A stretch of DNA of 50,520 nucleotides from an uncultured bacterium (lineage in GTDB: Bacteria > Pseudomonadota > Alphaproteobacteria > Rs-D84), in assembly GCA_950096895.1 (NCBI GenBank), contig CATNBF010000006.1, forward strand, positions 1 to 50,520. Reading direction: 5' to 3'. The translations under genes were made by a program, and so were the position numbers. Shown in pieces: positions 9,802-49,627 of this stretch. The notes under the pieces are model-generated. The model saw only the letters and a list, made by a program, of their open reading frames with translations. It ran no database searches and was not told the DNA's origin. Position 1 is the first letter of the stretch; every line of letters begins with the position of its first letter.

Positions 9802-9830
9802 TTGGTTCACCATGATTTATATCGTATAAT
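9802..9830 (+). promoter_or_regulatory. Leaderless ruvC promoter
   Basis: TTGGTT (9802-9807), 17 nt, TATAAT (9825-9830). The ATG follows 6 nt after the -10, so transcription would start at or next to the start codon, leaving no leader and no ribosome site. Confidence 0.7.
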
Positions 9831-9836
9831 ATAACC

Positions 9837-10316
9837 ATGACACGCATATTGGGAATTGATCCAGGATTATTACATACAGGTTGGGCCATCATCGACAGTC
9901 GGGGCAACACACGCACATACGTTGCCTCTGGCGTGATTTTACCACCGGCCAAATTACCCATGGCATCGCGTCTGGCCGAAATCTTTCGCGGTGTGAATCA
10001 ACTGTGTGAACAATTTTCACCACAGGCTTGCAGTATTGAAATCATTTTCATCAATCAAAATGCCAAGACATCGCTGCTGCTGGGCCAGGCCCGCGCCGCG
10101 GCCATCGTGGCGGCGGCCAATCGGGATATCCCGGTATTTGAATACGAACCCAACAAGATTAAAAAGGCAATCACCGCCGCAGGACATGCAGATAAAGACG
10201 CCGTGACAAAGATGGTGCGCATGCTGCTGCCGGGGGCATGCCCAAAAAGCCCAGACGAAGCAGATGCCATGGCCATTGCCTTGGCGCATAGCAATATGAT
10301 GCACATATGTGCATAA
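9837..10316 (+). CDS. ruvC: Holliday junction resolvase RuvC
   Basis: 159 aa. This dimeric endonuclease nicks four-way junctions symmetrically to complete recombination. It is an RNase H-fold protein with catalytic acids visible at D8 (ILGIDPGLLHTGWA), E68 (CSIEIIF) and the C-terminal SPDEADAMAIALAH; the GQARAAAI segment is typical. The length is normal. The ATG at 9837 is only 6 nt after a TATAAT, so the mRNA is probably leaderless. Its expected neighbours yebC and ruvA are close but on separate transcripts. Confidence 0.95.
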   Translation: MTRILGIDPGLLHTGWAIIDSRGNTRTYVASGVILPPAKLPMASRLAEIFRGVNQLCEQFSPQACSIEIIFINQNAKTSLLLGQARAAAIVAAANRDIPVFEYEPNKIKKAITAAGHADKDAVTKMVRMLLPGACPKSPDEADAMAIALAHSNMMHICA

Positions 10317-10338: not shown

Positions 10339-10367
10339 TTCATCTGAAAAACATGGGATGATATAAT
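10339..10367 (+). promoter_or_regulatory. Possible leaderless promoter of small membrane protein
   Basis: TATAAT (10362-10367) with a weak TTCATC 17 nt upstream. A GTG codon begins exactly 7 nt after the -10 and an ATG 10 nt after it. Confidence 0.45.
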
Positions 10368-10377
10368 TACCCATGTG

Positions 10378-10665
10378 ATGCCAACAGATAAACAATTTCT
10401 TATTGAATCTGAAAATGACCTGCATGCACGCCAGCGGCTGTTGCTGCATGCATTCTGGGCCAATTCGGCATTGGTTGCCACCGTTGGTGTTATCATGATT
10501 ACATTTGATGTGGGCGATGCTATGGCGTCTTTCTTGGGCGGCACAGGAACCGCCGCCACCCCCTATATGACGCATGGACTGGTGGCATGGGGAATCGGGG
10601 GCGTTGTCATATTCTTGGTGCCGGCGTTGGCCACGTATTGGGCCCGGTGCGGATTAAATAAATAA
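10378..10665 (+). CDS. Small membrane protein, unknown
   Basis: 95 aa from ATG 10378 (or 96 from GTG 10375). A polar N-terminus (TDKQFLIESENDLHARQRLL) precedes two predicted membrane helices, around FWANSALVATVGVIMITF and LVAWGIGGVVIFLVPALATYW, ending in CGLNK. The hairpin topology would place both ends on the same side. I recognise no family. There is no ribosome site; a TATAAT just upstream suggests a leaderless message, as for ruvC. The gene stands alone between ruvC and the methyltransferase. Confidence 0.6.
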   Translation: MPTDKQFLIESENDLHARQRLLLHAFWANSALVATVGVIMITFDVGDAMASFLGGTGTAATPYMTHGLVAWGIGGVVIFLVPALATYWARCGLNK

Positions 10666-19463: not shown

Positions 19464-20198
19464 TTATATATGAATATGATAATCGGCCAAGATCTGATGT
19501 TCTTGATCGGATAACACATAATCCGCGCAAGAAATCGGCCCATAAATGGCAAATTTCTTGTTTTGATATGCGGCCCACATCCGATCGCCATAGGACCAAT
19601 GCCACCATTCTGCGGGATAGTTATTAAATCCCGCCGCCGTCATCACATTGATCAGCAGCTGGCGATTTTTACGGGCCATATGACTAATTTGTGGGGTGCG
19701 TGTCCTGCTCTGCTGATTCAATGTCAAGATCGCCGTCCCCATGTCCAATGGCCGGCCCGATGCATCAACAATTGTCACATCTATCGCGCCCCCGGTTTGG
19801 TGCGGGCCATATCCGTGTTTGGGACATGCCACCATGGCCCGTGCCATACGATCCAAGGCATCATGGGATAGATGGGGATATTCTTGCCCCAGTTTTTCCC
19901 GATGCGTTAACCACATTGCCCACTGATGCCCCATCGGGCGCAGCCCATGGACCAAATGCAACCGAAATCCCGCAGGTAATTTTGCCGCCGCCCACCCCAG
20001 CATCTGGGCCACCGTGTCCCGCACCCAAAATCCACCACGCGCCGCCACCGCACGATCAAAAGAAAATCGATCATCATCCAAAAGATTAATTAAACATTCC
20101 CCCGATTCTGTGACCGGTATATGATTAATATAATGGGCCGGTATGGTGCCCCGCATGCCTAATCGATAAAGAATATATTTGATTTTGTTTTTTATCAT
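19464..20198 (-). CDS. D-alanyl-D-alanine dipeptidase, VanX/DdpX-like (peptidase M15D)
   Basis: 244 aa zinc peptidase expected to hydrolyse D-Ala-D-Ala. The active-site layout matches VanX: an Arg in VHGLRPMGHQ, zinc ligands in PHQTGGAIDVTI (His then Asp seven residues on), and the catalytic Glu plus third ligand His in EWWHWSYGD. No signal peptide is evident, suggesting a cytosolic enzyme that recycles the dipeptide during wall turnover. No vanA/vanH-type genes are nearby, so resistance is not implied. The ATG at 20198 lies exactly 7 nt after a -10-like TAAAGT with TTGGTT 17 nt further up, so the message may be leaderless. Confidence 0.8.
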   Translation of the reverse strand: MIKNKIKYILYRLGMRGTIPAHYINHIPVTESGECLINLLDDDRFSFDRAVAARGGFWVRDTVAQMLGWAAAKLPAGFRLHLVHGLRPMGHQWAMWLTHREKLGQEYPHLSHDALDRMARAMVACPKHGYGPHQTGGAIDVTIVDASGRPLDMGTAILTLNQQSRTRTPQISHMARKNRQLLINVMTAAGFNNYPAEWWHWSYGDRMWAAYQNKKFAIYGPISCADYVLSDQEHQILADYHIHI

Positions 20199-20305
20199 TG
20201 GTCATACTTTATCACAATAAATCCATAAAACCAACATGCGATGCGCCCCACCCTGGATAGATAAATTATTCTTTCTATGCCCTGAAATCCGGCATATCTC
20301 CAGAA

Positions 20306-30063: not shown

Positions 30064-30104
30064 TAACCCTTTCCCCCGTGTGTTTATCCCTATTATAAAA
30101 ACTA

Positions 30105-30133
30105 TTGCCACCCAAAGGCAATTAAATTATAAT
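30105..30133 (+). promoter_or_regulatory. Leaderless promoter of small lipoprotein gene
   Basis: TTGCCA (30105-30110), 17 nt, TATAAT (30128-30133), then exactly 7 nt to ATG 30141. This also rules out the track's ATG at 30132, which overlaps the -10 box. Confidence 0.75.
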
Positions 30134-30140
30134 GATAGGC

Positions 30141-30521
30141 ATGAGAATAAAATACCTGGGGATATTTTTGGTCTTGGCGGCGTGTTCTTCACCCAATCGC
30201 GGCAGTTTGGATAACGCCACCGTCTTAAATTGGGAGAATGAGGCCGTCACCACCGAACAATTTGTTCGCGATCACAAGGCATGTTTAGGCATTAATCAGC
30301 CGTCATACATGCCCCGATCCCGCATTGCCAAATTATTGGCCCCGAACCAAAGCGGGCTGATGCCGGATTGGGATGGGCTGTGGGTGACATTTCAATCAAA
30401 TGAATATCGTGACGTTGGCCAACGGGCATTAATGTCTGTGCCGCGCACGGCAACATCACGCACGGTGGGATCATACCGGCGGTGCATGTTCCGACGCGGG
30501 TATTTGTTGCGGGCCGTATAA
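30141..30521 (+). CDS. Small lipoprotein, unknown
   Basis: 126 aa from ATG 30141. MRIKYLGIFLVLAACSS is a clear lipoprotein signal. The mature part is polar with conserved-looking FVRDHKACLGI and SYRRCMFRRGYL, and two Cys that may pair. No family named. The start follows from the promoter position: the -10 ends 7 nt before the ATG and no ribosome site exists. It precedes ftsQ on the same strand, but ftsQ has its own promoter 19 nt after this gene's stop. Confidence 0.65.
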   Translation: MRIKYLGIFLVLAACSSPNRGSLDNATVLNWENEAVTTEQFVRDHKACLGINQPSYMPRSRIAKLLAPNQSGLMPDWDGLWVTFQSNEYRDVGQRALMSVPRTATSRTVGSYRRCMFRRGYLLRAV

Positions 30522-30539: not shown

Positions 30540-30568
30540 TTGGATCCTGAATAAAATTGTGATATAAT
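30540..30568 (+). promoter_or_regulatory. Leaderless ftsQ promoter
   Basis: TTGGAT (30540-30545), 17 nt, TATAAT (30563-30568), then 7 nt to the ftsQ ATG at 30576. Confidence 0.75.
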
Positions 30569-30575
30569 AGACCAG

Positions 30576-31259
30576 ATGAAAAAATCTGTCTGGTTTTGGT
30601 TATGCTTTGTAATCGCTATTGTGCTGGCGACCTATTTTGCGACCCGTGTTATTATGGTGACATCGGGCCGGGGTCGATTGGGGCAAATACGTCATATTTC
30701 AATCACCACAGATGGGGAAAACGTGGATTTATCTGCCTTGGCCGCCGCCACCGGGATTGCCCCCGGCACGGCATCTTATCGGACCCGCCTGGGGCCGATC
30801 AATGCCCGAATTGCGGCGGTGCCCGGGGTTCGGGCGTCGGCGGTTCGGCGGTTGGCCAATGGAAATTTGGGGGTCCGCGCCGAAATGTATCAAACAATTG
30901 CCCTGTGGACAGATGATGGGGAAACATTTTTTCCTATATCGGGCAATGGAACCATTATCCGCACGCCACAGAAAAATCGCGCTCCGTCGGACGTCTTGTT
31001 TCGCGGCCCGGTGCCCCGTGACATTGATGAAATTACACGGGTGGCGGCAAACCTGGGGGGGGTGCTGGATTACATGGAATGGATTGAAAACCGCCGATGG
31101 AACATGCATACCACGGGGGGAATTGTTGTTTTATTACCCCAAGATGATCCTGCCGCCGCGGTTAGCAAGTTGTTAATCATGAATAAAAACAACCAAATTC
31201 TGGACAAAAAAATATCAACCATTGACATGCGTGACCATGCGCGTGTGCTTGTTAAATAA
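30576..31259 (+). CDS. ftsQ: Cell division protein FtsQ
   Basis: 227 aa. A bitopic divisome protein linking early and late division factors. A short cytosolic start and one membrane helix (VWFWLCFVIAIVLATYFA) precede a POTRA domain (IRHISITTDGENVDLSALAAATGI, VPGVRASAVRRLANGNLGVRAEM) and the FtsQ beta domain with WNMHTTGGIVVLLPQDDPAAAVSKLL and IDMRDHARVLVK, the usual C-terminal layout. It has its own leaderless promoter and is followed at once by the ftsA fusion, preserving the ftsQ-ftsA order. murB, ddl and ftsZ are not present around it. Confidence 0.9.
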   Translation: MKKSVWFWLCFVIAIVLATYFATRVIMVTSGRGRLGQIRHISITTDGENVDLSALAAATGIAPGTASYRTRLGPINARIAAVPGVRASAVRRLANGNLGVRAEMYQTIALWTDDGETFFPISGNGTIIRTPQKNRAPSDVLFRGPVPRDIDEITRVAANLGGVLDYMEWIENRRWNMHTTGGIVVLLPQDDPAAAVSKLLIMNKNNQILDKKISTIDMRDHARVLVK

Positions 31260-31264
31260 ACGTG

Positions 31265-33058
31265 ATGAATTTATTTGATTCGTCTTTTTTGTGCCTGGAT
31301 GTTGGCACCGCCGTCGTACGTGGGATCGCCCATTGCGTGCGTGGGGCACGTATTGTCCGATCGGCGGTCGCAACCGCCGAATGTGACGATACACCGGTCG
31401 CCGCCATAATGGCGGTTGTTGACAATCTGGAACACCAGATGGCCACCCGGTTTACATCTGCGTTTGTAACAGGAAATTTTGGCGATGTTGTTTTTGATAT
31501 TACCGCCCGTCAAACCAAATGGCACGGCCCACATAAAATTGTGGCCGCAGACGTGCGTGACCATGCAACAAAAATTGGGGCACCCGACGGCTTTCACCCA
31601 ATGCATATTATCCCATTACGCTATGACGGGATAAATATACGCAATATGGCCACCCCCATCGGCCAGGTGGATACCGCACTGATGTCTGTGTTTGGGGTAA
31701 TTTCGTATTCACAATCCCATATGTCACATGTGTTTGCCGCCTTGCGACGTGCCCATATTCAAACAGATGGCATTTTTGATTCGATGTTTTTGCTGGCGAC
31801 AGCTATGCGTCCCAAACGCCAAACAATTATGATTCTGGATATGGGGGCGTCGTATACGACGGCATCCATATGGACACCCCGCGGGCCGGTGGCCATGGTC
31901 AAGATCGCACGGGGGCAATCTGAAATTATCAAAAAGATCTCTGAGACGTTTGATATTGGTATGACCGATGCCGCGCGGGTGCGTGGGGGTATTCCCATTA
32001 ATGTGACAGATATGGACCGATTTACACCGGCCGATGCCTTGTTTGGATTTTCACGCGCCGATGTGGCCGATGTCATCAATCCTGTGATGATGGATATTTT
32101 AGGCGAGATTCGAAACAACATGGCCGCCGCCATGGCAAAATACGCCCCGGCCACCTTGATGATCTGTGGCGGGGGATCAGATATTGACGGTATTAACGAT
32201 CTGGTGGCCCAGATGTTTTCAATGCCGATACAAAACATTGGATCTGATGCCACGTTACGCGCCCTGTCGGATACGGTGTGGGATATGCAAACGCCGCGCA
32301 TTGTCGCCTATAACGCACGACGCGACCGCATCGCCCATATGATGCGCCGCATTACCCGTATCTTTCAACCCGGACGCCGCCCCAATCGCCCCCGGGGACG
32401 GGCCGCGGGCCAAATTCCCATTTTGCCCAGTACGCTGGCCTTTGATATGCGCGACCCCATGACATATACCATGTTTCAGTCGGCCGGAATATCAATGATC
32501 CACGTTGATATTATGGATGGATTTTTTGTTGATCGTGTCACAGGCAGCATTGACGACCTGTGTCATATTCGGGCCAATACACGGGCCCATCTATCGGTGC
32601 ATTTAATGACAGAAAGTCCGGCCCACTGGGCGGCCGATGCGATTGCCGCCGGGGCCGATACCGTGATTGTGTCGGCAGGCGCGGCCGGGGTCCGGGATGC
32701 AATTGGCGAAATTCGACGCCGCGGCCGGCGGTTGGGAATTGCCATTTCACCGGATACATCGTTAACGGTGCTAAAACCCATATTGCGGCAAATTGACGTT
32801 GTCTTGGTTATGTCGGTGCGCCCTGGGGCCGGTGGCCAAGAATTTATCCCCAATACACTGGGGCGGATTGCAACATTGGCGGCAACACGCAAAAAATATG
32901 GATTAAAATTTGAAATATCGGTCGATGGTGGAATTAATAATCATACGGCACCTGGGTGCTGGGGTGCGGGGGCCGATACGTTGGTTTCGGGATCATACCT
33001 GGCCCAGGCGGCCGATTTCCCCTTGGCGGTTCAAAATTTATTAAAACGCCGGCCATAG
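31265..33058 (+). CDS. ftsA: Fusion protein: FtsA (N-terminal) and ribulose-phosphate 3-epimerase (C-terminal)
   Basis: 597 aa in one uninterrupted frame from ATG 31265 (GTG 31262 possible). Residue numbers here follow the 598-aa track ORF. Residues about 1-350 are FtsA, the actin-like tether of FtsZ: phosphate-1 FLCLDVGTAVVRG, an SHS2/1C region, phosphate-2 MILDMGASYTT, adenosine motif LMICGGGSDIDG. Residues 353-369 (RDRIAHMMRRITRIFQP) resemble the amphipathic membrane-targeting helix that normally ends FtsA. A basic Pro/Gly/Arg linker (370-384) leads into a full TIM-barrel epimerase (386-598): LPSTLAFD, HVDIMDGFFV (H414, D416), SVHLMTESP (H447), VRPGAGGQEFIP, SVDGGIN (D555). Rpe interconverts ribulose-5-P and xylulose-5-P. 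It follows ftsQ; ftsZ does not follow. Confidence 0.88.
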   Translation: MNLFDSSFLCLDVGTAVVRGIAHCVRGARIVRSAVATAECDDTPVAAIMAVVDNLEHQMATRFTSAFVTGNFGDVVFDITARQTKWHGPHKIVAADVRDHATKIGAPDGFHPMHIIPLRYDGINIRNMATPIGQVDTALMSVFGVISYSQSHMSHVFAALRRAHIQTDGIFDSMFLLATAMRPKRQTIMILDMGASYTTASIWTPRGPVAMVKIARGQSEIIKKISETFDIGMTDAARVRGGIPINVTDMDRFTPADALFGFSRADVADVINPVMMDILGEIRNNMAAAMAKYAPATLMICGGGSDIDGINDLVAQMFSMPIQNIGSDATLRALSDTVWDMQTPRIVAYNARRDRIAHMMRRITRIFQPGRRPNRPRGRAAGQIPILPSTLAFDMRDPMTYTMFQSAGISMIHVDIMDGFFVDRVTGSIDDLCHIRANTRAHLSVHLMTESPAHWAADAIAAGADTVIVSAGAAGVRDAIGEIRRRGRRLGIAISPDTSLTVLKPILRQIDVVLVMSVRPGAGGQEFIPNTLGRIATLAATRKKYGLKFEISVDGGINNHTAPGCWGAGADTLVSGSYLAQAADFPLAVQNLLKRRP

Positions 33059-34735: not shown

Positions 34736-36728
34736 ATTCCAGCAATAACAAATCATCTTCTAGTTTATGGATGGCATCGCGATATTCACCGGCCGCTTCA
34801 AATTCCAGGTTTTCCGCCGCATCGCGCATTTTTCGGGTTAAATCTTTGATCTGTTTACGGATCGACGCCGCATCCATAACGCCACCCGATTTATCATAAA
34901 CAAAGCGACGGGCCTTGTCTGTCTTGTCTTCTTTTTCGCCAACCTCTGCAAAAACGGCCTTGGATACTGTTTTTGGGGTAATATTATGTTCACGATTGTA
35001 CGCCATCTGTTTTTCACGACGTCGGGCGGTCTCGCCCAAGGCGGCCTGCATTGAATCTGTTATTTTATCTGCATACAAAATCACACGCCCATTGGCATTA
35101 CGGGCCGCACGCCCAATGGTTTGAATCAATGATCGGGTCGACCGCAGAAAGCCTTCTTTGTCTGCATCCATAATTGCGACCAATTCACATTCGGGAACGT
35201 CCAATCCTTCGCGTAATAGATTGATTCCCACCAAGACATCATATTTGCCCAAACGCAAATCACGTAACAATTCAATACGTTCCAGGGTTTCAATATCACT
35301 ATGCAGATAGCGGGCACGTACACCATTTTCATTTAGATAGTCGGTCAACTGCTCTGCCATTTTCTTGGTCAGCGTTGTAACCAATACGCGCCCAGAAACC
35401 CGTTTCACCTCGTCCAATAGATCATCAACTTGGTGGGCGGTGGGCTTTATATCACAAACCGGATCCAACAGACCGGTGGGACGGATCACCTGTTCTGCGA
35501 CAATGCCACCCGATTGTTCCAGTTCCCATGTCGCCGGTGTTGCCGACACAAATATCGTCTGGGGACGCAACGCATCCCATTCTCCGAATGTCAACGGCCG
35601 GTTATCAATACACGCCGGCAAACGGAATCCATATTGCGCCAATGTTTCTTTACGTGCCCGATCCCCACGCGACATGGCAGAAATCTGGGGAACGGTCACG
35701 TGACTTTCGTCAATAAACAAAACGGCGTCACGCGGTAAATATTCAAATAATGTCGGCGGTGGCATGCCCGGGGCCCGCCCAGATAGGTAACGCGAATAAT
35801 TTTCAATCCCGCGGCATGTTCCCGTACTTTCCATCATTTCGATATCGAAATTTACACGCTCGCGCAGACGTTGCTCTTCGATATACTTCATATTATCATG
35901 AAAGTAATCCAGTCGTTCTTTCAGATCTGTTTTAATTTCCCCAATGGCCTGTAAGATCGATGGCATGGGTGTCGCATAGTGGGTATTGGGATAAACCGCA
36001 ATCCGGTCCAGTTTTTGCAACCGCGCCCCAGTCAAGGTATCAAATTCCCAAATTTCTTCGATTTCATCGCCAAAGAATGATAATTTCCATGCCCGATCCA
36101 ATGCGTGTGATGGAAACACATCCAAGGTGTCGCCCCGTACACGAAAATGTCCCCGTTCAAAGGCCAAATCGTTACGCGTATACTGAATATCCACCAAGGC
36201 CCGCATCACATCCCGCATGCCGATTTTATCACCCGCATTCAGAACCAGTTTCATCCCTGCATACTGTTCTGGTGACCCCATCCCGTATATAGATGACACG
36301 GACGAGACAACAATCACATCCCGTTCTTCTAACATGGCGCGTGTCGCACTATGGCGCATACGATCCAACTGCTCGTTAATAGATGCATCTTTGTCGATAT
36401 AGGTATCGGTGGTGGGCATATAGGCTTCGGGTTGATAATAATCATAATACGAAACGAAATATTCCACATGATTGCGTGGAAAAAACGCCTTCATTTCTGT
36501 ATATAATTGCGCCGCCAAGATTTTATTCGGGGCCATAATCAATGCAGGCCGGCCCAAATTCGCGATCACATTCGCCATGGTAAATGTCTTGCCAGATCCC
36601 GTCACCCCTAATAAAACCTGGGATCGGCGGCCGTCACGCACCCCGTCGGTCAATTCACGAATGGCTGTCGGCTGATCCCCCATGGGGGCATAATTACTTT
36701 CTAATGAAAAGACATTTTTTTTATTCAC
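34734..36728 (-). CDS. uvrB: Excinuclease ABC subunit UvrB
   Basis: 664 aa damage-verifying helicase of nucleotide excision repair; it receives lesions from UvrA and presents them to UvrC. Walker [15 protein letters not shown], the DNA-wedging hairpin [23 protein letters not shown] (motif II), the C-terminal helicase domain with [12 protein letters not shown] and TIGRAARN, and a UVR domain at the end ([21 protein letters not shown]). It begins with GTG 36728, which lies exactly 7 nt after TATATT, so the message is probably leaderless. No LexA half-site pair seen upstream. Confidence 0.97.
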
Positions 36729-36735
36729 AAGTCTT

Positions 36736-36763
36736 AATATAATTCATTATAATGAAATTACAA
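36736..36763 (-). promoter_or_regulatory. Leaderless uvrB promoter, overlapping the divergent AsmA-like promoter
   Basis: Minus strand TTGTAA (36758-36763), 16 nt, TATATT (36736-36741), 7 nt to GTG. On the plus strand TATAAT (36748-36753) with TTCACA 18 nt upstream would drive the AsmA-like gene; the two promoters interleave and cannot both be occupied. Confidence 0.55.
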
Positions 36764-36775
36764 GGACAGAAGAGA

Positions 36776-39247
36776 ATGGCAAATAAACCCAAATTATTTC
36801 GTCGCCTGGTGGGCGGCATAATGATCGCGGTGGGAATAATCCTGGTCGCGGTGGTGGCGGTGCCACCGATGATAACGCTGAATGCATTACGGCCCCGCAT
36901 CGAACAAACCATTGCCCAGCGCATGGGTATAGATGCCAAAATCCGGGGAAATGTGCGGATATCATTAATCGGGGGGGCAACCATATCTGCCCGGGATATC
37001 GTGGTCCCAGATGGGGTTGTCGCCATGACCCAGTTTTCTATTCCCTTGTGGTCGATATTTAATTTGTCGGCGGCCCCGCTATCGGGTGATGTGATTATTT
37101 CGGGGGCCCGGCTGAATGTGACACGATTGGTCCCGGTGTCATTTGATAATCCCATCGATATTCGTGATTCGTGGATCGAATTCTATGGCAAGACATACGA
37201 AATCGTCAACGCCACCATCCGTGGGGGCCAAATGCGCGGCATGGTTCGCACAGATCAGCACAAATATGAAATTGATTATGCCGGGGATGAATTTATTATC
37301 AAAAATCGGGCAAATGATTTGCTGATCACTGGACACTTGTATTCAGATGGTTCGGCCCGTGGGAAAATGCGGTTGGATGCCGCAGATGTTAATGCATGGT
37401 TTGAATTTTCATCACCAAAAATCGACACACCTGTTCGATTATCTATGGATTTTGATTGGGATGGCGGCTATGGCTTTAACTTTACCCATATCCAAGGGGA
37501 TAATTTTACCGGTGATATCCATTTATTGCCCAATGGGGGTCGGGATATCCGGTTAAAGGCATGGGATATGAACCTTGACCTGGGATTCTTGATGCAGCCC
37601 AGTGCCCTGTTCACCAATACCGTATTGGATTTAGATTTTTCGGGCAACTTAACCTTTGCGGGTCATACGTTCCATCACCTGGGGGTGATGATGCGGGGTG
37701 GCCCAGACAGTGTTCATATCGAAAAAATAACCGCCGATGACATTCAAATTTCGGGCGGCACCATCACCGCCGATGGTGCACGTGATGTGTTTGTAAAAAT
37801 CCCCTATGACGGTATGCCGGCAACATGTCTGTTTTCTGGGACACCCAATGCATGGCGGTGCGGAAACTTTACATGGGGAAACATATCTGGATCGATTGAT
37901 GTTGATGGCGACACCTTTAACATCTTTGTTCAATCAACAGACGCGGCCCCCGATGGAATTGATATACGCCAGATGACACAAAAACTGGGGGTTCAAGGCA
38001 AGATCGTTTTTCAATTTTCAGATATCGCAGGAACCATTAACCTGGATAACAATGGGATTAAGTCACAATTAAACTTTGCCCACGACAGAAATATCCGATG
38101 GATCGGATCCCAGATTGCCCCCATTTCAAATGCCATGCGTGATGATATTGGCAACTTTATCTGGATGGGTGACGTTATGGAATTTACCCCCCATTCGGGA
38201 AAATGGCACCTGTGGATGCGGGGACGGGAATTCCAGCTACGCGGGAAAAACATCTTTGACCTGGCCCAGATCCCCCAGCCGGTTTTTCTGCGGGATATGG
38301 ATTACACAATATCAGGGATCTTTAATGAAACAAATATCTCTAATATGCGTGTAACCATTGGCGGCCATGAATTCACCGGTGCCATGGCCGACCAAATGAT
38401 TACGCTGGATACCAACACGCTAAATATCGATGATTTTATCAACCCAGAATTTGTCGATAATTATCCAGAACTGGAATTTATGATCAATTCCCCCATTATG
38501 ACGCCATTTGATTGGGGACTGAATTTGTCACTGGGGGCGGATATTGTCATTTATAATGGAAACGCGTTTCAGAATTTCCTTTATACCCTTAAACCAGACC
38601 GCCAGACGTTTTCTATATCGGACAATGATCGGGGCAACATGATGGCCCAAATAACACGCCAGAAAAAGAATTATAATATATCACTGGTGCTGGACCGGTT
38701 TGTTATATCGGCCCCGCTGTTAAACCCATCCATGCCGTTAAACATCCAAGACACGATGATCACCGCAACCGCAGAAATGACCACATCGGGCCAGATTGCA
38801 TACGATATCCATCATAACCTGCGCGGGAATTTGGATATGACAATGATTGGGGGCCGTTTAGTGGGCCTGGGGCTGGATGACTTTTACGCGGTAGCCGCGA
38901 ATTTGAACACCACCAATGCGGAAATGATCCTGGCACGCGCCTTGGATGGGGGCCAGACACGAATTAAACAAATTCATATCATCGGGCAATATGATGATGG
39001 AAACTTTGAAACAACACGCCCCATGACAATCACATTACCCCATGTGGATGCCCGTGGTCAATTGGCCATCACAGATGGTCTGATGTTGGCGGATATTGAT
39101 TTGGTATTGCGCGGTACGGCCCCCATGCCGGCCCCAATCGCCTTGCAAATCAATGGGGATACGCGAACGTATTCATTATCCCAGATTATGATTCATTTTG
39201 ATTCTGATTATATGCGGGATTTTGTCCGTAGCCACGACAAGTTCTAG
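36776..39247 (+). CDS. AsmA-family envelope protein
   Basis: 823 aa from ATG 36776 (AAGGA upstream). One N-terminal helix (LVGGIMIAVGIILVAVVAV), then the AsmA start pattern NALRPRIEQTIAQRMGIDAKIRGNVRIS and a very long beta-rich periplasmic region; the C-terminal part resembles AsmA C-domains (LNTTNAEMILARALDGGQTRIKQI). The family forms bridge-like beta-grooves thought to move phospholipids between the inner and outer membrane. Its 3' end overlaps a convergent gene by 4 nt. Confidence 0.8.
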   Translation: MANKPKLFRRLVGGIMIAVGIILVAVVAVPPMITLNALRPRIEQTIAQRMGIDAKIRGNVRISLIGGATISARDIVVPDGVVAMTQFSIPLWSIFNLSAAPLSGDVIISGARLNVTRLVPVSFDNPIDIRDSWIEFYGKTYEIVNATIRGGQMRGMVRTDQHKYEIDYAGDEFIIKNRANDLLITGHLYSDGSARGKMRLDAADVNAWFEFSSPKIDTPVRLSMDFDWDGGYGFNFTHIQGDNFTGDIHLLPNGGRDIRLKAWDMNLDLGFLMQPSALFTNTVLDLDFSGNLTFAGHTFHHLGVMMRGGPDSVHIEKITADDIQISGGTITADGARDVFVKIPYDGMPATCLFSGTPNAWRCGNFTWGNISGSIDVDGDTFNIFVQSTDAAPDGIDIRQMTQKLGVQGKIVFQFSDIAGTINLDNNGIKSQLNFAHDRNIRWIGSQIAPISNAMRDDIGNFIWMGDVMEFTPHSGKWHLWMRGREFQLRGKNIFDLAQIPQPVFLRDMDYTISGIFNETNISNMRVTIGGHEFTGAMADQMITLDTNTLNIDDFINPEFVDNYPELEFMINSPIMTPFDWGLNLSLGADIVIYNGNAFQNFLYTLKPDRQTFSISDNDRGNMMAQITRQKKNYNISLVLDRFVISAPLLNPSMPLNIQDTMITATAEMTTSGQIAYDIHHNLRGNLDMTMIGGRLVGLGLDDFYAVAANLNTTNAEMILARALDGGQTRIKQIHIIGQYDDGNFETTRPMTITLPHVDARGQLAITDGLMLADIDLVLRGTAPMPAPIALQINGDTRTYSLSQIMIHFDSDYMRDFVRSHDKF

Positions 39248-49024: not shown

Positions 49025-49053
49025 TTGAATGCATGTCTGAAATAATGTATATT
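49025..49053 (+). promoter_or_regulatory. Leaderless promoter of PagL-like gene
   Basis: TTGAAT (49025-49030), 17 nt, TATATT (49048-49053), then 7 nt to ATG 49061. Confidence 0.7.
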
Positions 49054-49060
49054 GGGCGGT

Positions 49061-49627
49061 ATGAAAAAATACTTGCTCTTTTTAATGGCCCTTGTTGTCC
49101 CGGGATTGGCACACGCGGCAGACGTATGGAATCCCTTTATGGGGTATAATGATCACCAAGTGGCCATTAATTTCGGTCAAGGTGTCGATAGCGGATTTTT
49201 AATTCCGCCACCATCGCGATTTGTGCCGTTTTATATGATGCCCCATATTCAATATTCGCAACCGACAACGTTTTTTAAGCTGCCGGCGCGTCAATCATTG
49301 AACTTTGGCGAAACGGTGGGCATGGGGAAAAAGTATGGTTGGAATTGGAAATCGTTTTCGATCCCAATGCTGTTTGCATCGGGGGATGTGGCATTGCTGT
49401 ATGGGAAAAACTGGTACTATGCCACGGGCGTCGGTGTCGGTTTCCAGGCCCAGCAAAATGATCGTTTGGGGGCGAAATTATTGTTCCAATTCAAGATTTC
49501 CGCCGGATACCGGTTTAACGATTGCTGGGGTGGGGAAATATATGTTCAACATTTTTCCAATGGCAACACGGCCGATGAAAATTATTCTTATGCCTTTTAT
49601 GGACTGGGGATGACATATAGTTTCTAA
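49061..49627 (+). CDS. Outer-membrane beta-barrel, PagL-like lipid A 3-O-deacylase family
   Basis: 188 aa from ATG 49061 (the track adds three residues). Signal peptide KYLLFLMALVVPGLAHAA, then a series of amphipathic strands (YYATGVGVGFQAQQND, LLFQFKISAGYRF) and the C-terminal FYGLGMTYSF with terminal Phe, typical of an outer-membrane barrel. IYVQHFSNG followed by an acidic residue resembles the His-Ser-Glu site of PagL, which removes the 3-O-acyl chain of lipid A. Enzyme activity is inferred from that motif only. It neighbours a GT8 gene, so both may tailor LPS. Confidence 0.65.
   Translation: MKKYLLFLMALVVPGLAHAADVWNPFMGYNDHQVAINFGQGVDSGFLIPPPSRFVPFYMMPHIQYSQPTTFFKLPARQSLNFGETVGMGKKYGWNWKSFSIPMLFASGDVALLYGKNWYYATGVGVGFQAQQNDRLGAKLLFQFKISAGYRFNDCWGGEIYVQHFSNGNTADENYSYAFYGLGMTYSF

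Follow-up and report, generated by a model that had tools for sequence, protein, structure and literature searches.

The window analysed here is a 50.5 kb contig (50,520 nucleotides) from a draft genome of 998,742 bases in 41 contigs. The host is a gut alphaproteobacterium with a genome of ~1 Mb, assigned to order Rs-D84 and placed near Candidatus Enterousia, which is itself a member of this uncultured, genome-reduced order (PMC12306168). The top named relatives of its uvrB gene come from gut MAGs labelled 'Alphaproteobacteria bacterium', including Candidatus Enterousia scatequi. Seven genes in the window had been singled out in an earlier note as having a -10 box very close to the start codon, in most cases a TTG-type -35 element, and no ribosome site. 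All three features are present in the sequence: the -10 box lies 6-7 nt upstream of the start in all seven cases, a TTG-type -35 element at a spacer of 16-17 nt is found at six (the exception being gene 10375), and none of the seven sites has a clear Shine-Dalgarno (SD) sequence at working distance. The sites are as follows.

9802-9839 (+), ruvC promoter: -35 TTGGTT at 9802-9807, 17-nt spacer, -10 TATAAT at 9825-9830, 6 nt, ATG at 9837.
10359-10380 (+), gene 10375: extended -10 TGATATAAT with hexamer at 10362-10367, 7 nt to GTG at 10375 and 10 nt to ATG at 10378.
20196-20234 (-), gene 20198: -35 TTGGTT at 20229-20234, 17-nt spacer, -10 TAAAGT at 20206-20211, 7 nt, ATG at 20198.
30104-30143 (+), gene 30141: -35 TTGCCA at 30105-30110, 17-nt spacer, -10 TATAAT at 30128-30133, 7 nt, ATG at 30141.
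30540-30578 (+), ftsQ: -35 TTGGAT at 30540-30545, 17-nt spacer, extended -10 TGATATAAT with hexamer TATAAT at 30563-30568, 7 nt, ATG at 30576.
36726-36763 (-), uvrB: -35 TTGTAA at 36758-36763, 16-nt spacer, -10 TATATT at 36736-36741, 7 nt, GTG at 36728.
49025-49063 (+), gene 49061: -35 TTGAAT at 49025-49030, 17-nt spacer, -10 TATATT at 49048-49053, 7 nt, ATG at 49061.

The gene products include RuvC (PF02075), FtsQ (PF03799), a protein with UvrB domains encoded at 36728, a VanY/VanX-like M15 peptidase (PF01427) encoded at 20198, a PagL-like outer-membrane protein encoded at 49061, and a 126-aa protein of no known family encoded at 30141. The -10 element of ftsQ is extended by TGA, and the weak -10 of gene 20198 also carries an extended TG. 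A sequence check of gene 10375 revealed no clear -35 element and an extended -10 only. Directly after ftsQ, at 31262-33058 (+), lies a 598-aa frame that appears to be an FtsA-Rpe fusion, with a weak FtsA-like part at residues ~100-340 followed by a ribulose-phosphate 3-epimerase at residues 386-591. Over the -35 element and spacer of gene 30141 lies an inverted repeat, ATTGCC-N7-GGCAAT (30104-30122), which is largely kept in the orthologs examined and is a possible operator. A regulon marked by this repeat is not supported, the full repeat occurring in the genome only at 30104 and at C3:3305.

The 3' tail of the host 16S rRNA reads GGATCACCTCCTTTA, a normal and intact anti-SD sequence, and elsewhere in the genome AAGG peaks 7-10 nt upstream of starts, indicating that SD initiation is used in this organism. 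The frequency of close promoters was assessed in a 450 kb sample of the host genome (the window plus 400 kb of further stretches, ~45% of the genome), in which a simple hexamer model called 422 genes, and in 20 congeners totalling about 690 kb, of which one contributed a masked stub only. Gene starts and promoter scores thus come from simple models and not from a trained gene finder; promoters were scored with textbook sigma-70 weights untrained on the seven sites. One start was taken per gene (longest ORF), a score of at least 10 defined a strong promoter, and 300 dinucleotide shuffles served as the reference. In the host sample, a strong promoter lies 6-8 nt before the start of 12 of 243 SD-less genes, compared with a mean of 0.68 and a maximum of 5 in the shuffles; in the congeners the count is 19 of 329 (shuffle mean 1.22, maximum 6). 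None of the 300 shuffles equals the observed count in either the host genome or the genus. Counting -10 boxes 6-8 nt before starts against shuffled sequence, a check suggested in the earlier note, therefore yields an excess, with ~45% of the genome sampled. The outgroup shows no excess (1 of 119), a small sample of very different GC contents that is for this reason weak evidence. Scaling the 450 kb sample up to a gene set of about 900, we estimate that the whole genome has 25-55 leaderless genes.

Strong promoters of SD-less genes peak at a spacing of 6-9 nt, and those of SD-led genes lie about 20-40 nt upstream of the start with a peak at about 22-35 nt, suggesting that SD-led and predicted leaderless genes exist side by side in this genome. 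The 7-nt distance had been claimed as fixed; a narrow peak near 7 is indeed observed, but as it spans 6-9 nt the value of 7 is not strict. The sites share the published attributes of TA-led genes, defined as genes with a TAtaaT-type -10 about 12 bp before the start and no SD (Zheng et al. 2011, PMC3160421): a -10-type hexamer (TANNNT) precedes the start codon by about 10-12 bp, an SD at working distance is lacking in an otherwise SD-using genome, and the count exceeds that in dinucleotide-preserving shuffles. As a further criterion, outside the published definition, we asked that the distance to the start be kept among orthologs, which is the case for ftsQ, gene 30141 and uvrB, and more loosely for gene 49061.

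The genus is diverse, with RuvC identities of 64-83% and full-length FtsQ identities of about 40-66%, so that conservation is informative. Upstream of ftsQ, 28 of 30 congeners keep a spacing of 7 from -10 to start while the 7-mer itself varies, and the motif [AG]TGNTATAAT-N7-ATG is found in essentially all 30 species. The -10 hexamer with its TG carries 1.4-1.8 bits of information per position, and positions -7 to -4 carry 0-0.3 bits. For gene 30141 the arrangement is kept in the 30 orthologs examined, with a spacing of 7 in 25 of the 29 distinct ones; for uvrB the spacing is 7 in 27 of 31 relatives. For gene 49061, 24 of 28 distinct orthologs have their best -10 (TATATT-type) at 6-9 nt.

RNA polymerase favours a purine after a pyrimidine, about 7 nt past the -10 element, as the site of initiation. 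In leadered SD genes of the genus, purines are favoured from the seventh base after the -10 (0.45 to 0.72), so that at a spacing of 6 the transcription start would coincide with the start codon. Base -1 played no part in site selection. Among promoters scoring at least 10 in the host and genus, this base is a pyrimidine in all 17 cases at spacing 6 and in 22 of 28 at spacing 7, the corresponding value for SD genes being 45-49%. A pyrimidine is thus usual at -1 for spacings of 6-7, and the start codon would itself complete the YR initiator. At spacing 8 the YR step is displaced one base upstream, with -2 mostly Y and -1 mostly A. The same pattern is seen in individual ortholog sets, with a pyrimidine at -1 in 28 of 30 for ftsQ, 29 of 29 for gene 30141 and 25 of 28 for gene 49061, and with an invariant T in the uvrB set. 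These observations point to transcripts that begin on the start codon or one base before it. Were the -10-like boxes instead chance A+T-rich hexamers, the real transcripts would start upstream and have SD-less leaders. The intergenic DNA is A+T-rich, and one-mismatch versions of TATAAT are common at every spacing; such a reading is nevertheless very unlikely given that dinucleotide shuffles are exceeded, that about 30 species keep the spacing, their -35 elements being in register, and that the YR initiator falls exactly on the start codon.

The true start codons might also lie further downstream, in which case the messages would have ordinary short leaders. This is clearly possible for gene 10375, in whose nearest relative the GTG is absent and TATACT stands 9 nt before the ATG. 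Its spacing to the start is not kept among relatives, most of which have a leader with an SD (AAAGG). The start of gene 10375 is accordingly uncertain, and because the nearest relative lacks the GTG, the true start may be the ATG one codon later. Similarly, one uvrB relative (L068) has GTT in place of GTG and an ATG a few codons downstream. In 31 relatives, however, the uvrB start is GTG, and most have no other in-frame start near it. For ftsQ and gene 30141, protein conservation among orthologs and the pattern of most variable third codon positions both begin at the projected ATG; FtsQ orthologs mostly begin MKRSIWFW, and in another family of the order the FtsQ N-terminus is too diverged for the start to be traced. 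Across the set as a whole we consider downstream starts highly improbable.

For ruvC (9837-10316), the leaderless arrangement occurs in about 6 of 30 congeners, and in the others the gene overlaps or closely follows the upstream gene or carries AAGG. Among the congeners ruvC thus takes leaderless, SD-led and stop-start coupled forms, a natural series in which the evolution of initiation mode could be followed. Gene 20198 has just three weak orthologs among 58 congeners. The leaderless class proposed for seven sites is upheld by orthologs for ftsQ, gene 30141 and uvrB, and less tightly for gene 49061, and lacks such support at genes 10375 and 20198. The restriction of leaderless ruvC to some species and the leaders of gene 10375 in most relatives weaken the overall case.

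At 36728-36790, a single, very short promoter block is common to uvrB and an AsmA-like gene in divergent orientation. A leaderless start of the AsmA-like gene at 36752 was considered and rejected, because this ATG is missing from several relatives, in which an AAGG-type SD precedes the ATG matching 36776; the latter is probably the true start. The uvrB site might be kept mainly as a divergent promoter block shared with this neighbour, and not for leaderless expression of uvrB. Consistent with this, -10-like boxes are present on both strands of the block ATTATAATGAATTATATT, and CTTGT of the uvrB -35 complements ACAAG(G) in the SD of the opposite gene. A shared block would account for the high conservation of the block but not for the fixed 7 nt to GTG across a variable interval, and it is inapplicable to ftsQ, gene 30141 and gene 49061; we regard it as unlikely.

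Leaderless mRNA is, with high confidence, the best explanation for these genes. The promoter would be placed so near the gene that the mRNA carries neither leader nor SD, and the ribosome would recognise the 5'-terminal start codon directly, as in known leaderless mRNAs. The promoter part of this mechanism is strongly supported at the level of sequence, from which we infer the position of the 5' end and the initiation by ribosomes on a leaderless message; any of these genes may have a further promoter upstream. That the leaderless messages form a real class, as first proposed, is borne out by the excess over shuffles, the spacing kept across about 30 species and the YR initiator at the start codon. 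Their description as DNA repair and division genes is not established as a functional category, the candidate list being mixed. Besides ruvC, uvrB and ftsQ, the sample also yields as candidates DNA ligase, RodA/FtsW, MurJ, LptF/G, two M23 peptidases, RnpA, TsaE, a sigma factor, a subtilase, methyltransferases, a type II/IV secretion ATPase and others; envelope genes are prominent in this listing, from which we draw no functional category. It is conceivable, though doubtful, that Rs-D84 keeps a fixed set of individually conserved leaderless genes, including ftsQ, the GTG-started uvrB and the 126-aa protein, whose translation would respond jointly to the state of ribosomes or initiation factors in a reduced genome.

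The leaderless class as such is already known; the present analysis adds a new lineage, conservation that runs gene by gene, and a GTG start retained in uvrB. The literature searched yielded no article that deals with leaderless genes in Rs-D84. The present genes resemble TA-led genes in the placement of the -10, the lack of an SD and the excess over dinucleotide shuffles; the survey of Zheng et al., which reported TA-led genes from no more than 2 of the 117 alphaproteobacterial genomes (PMC3160421), is older than the Rs-D84 MAGs, and in contrast to it single genes are traced here through about 30 species. Within the same bacterial class, 5'-end mapping has identified 375 leaderless mRNAs in Caulobacter crescentus (PMC4117421) and 171 in Sinorhizobium meliloti (PMC3616915); these were measured, whereas the present ones are predicted. 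All leaderless starts in S. meliloti are AUG (PMC3616915), whereas uvrB here keeps GTG in most relatives; what stands out most in the finding is this conserved, GTG-started uvrB that is predicted to be leaderless.

An uncultured, genome-reduced order thus joins the alphaproteobacteria that apparently mix leaderless and SD-led translation, and the leaderless mode appears to be kept gene by gene across a whole genus. Gene-finding software that relies on an SD may place such starts wrongly, and uvrB offers a concrete, predicted case of a conserved non-AUG leaderless start.
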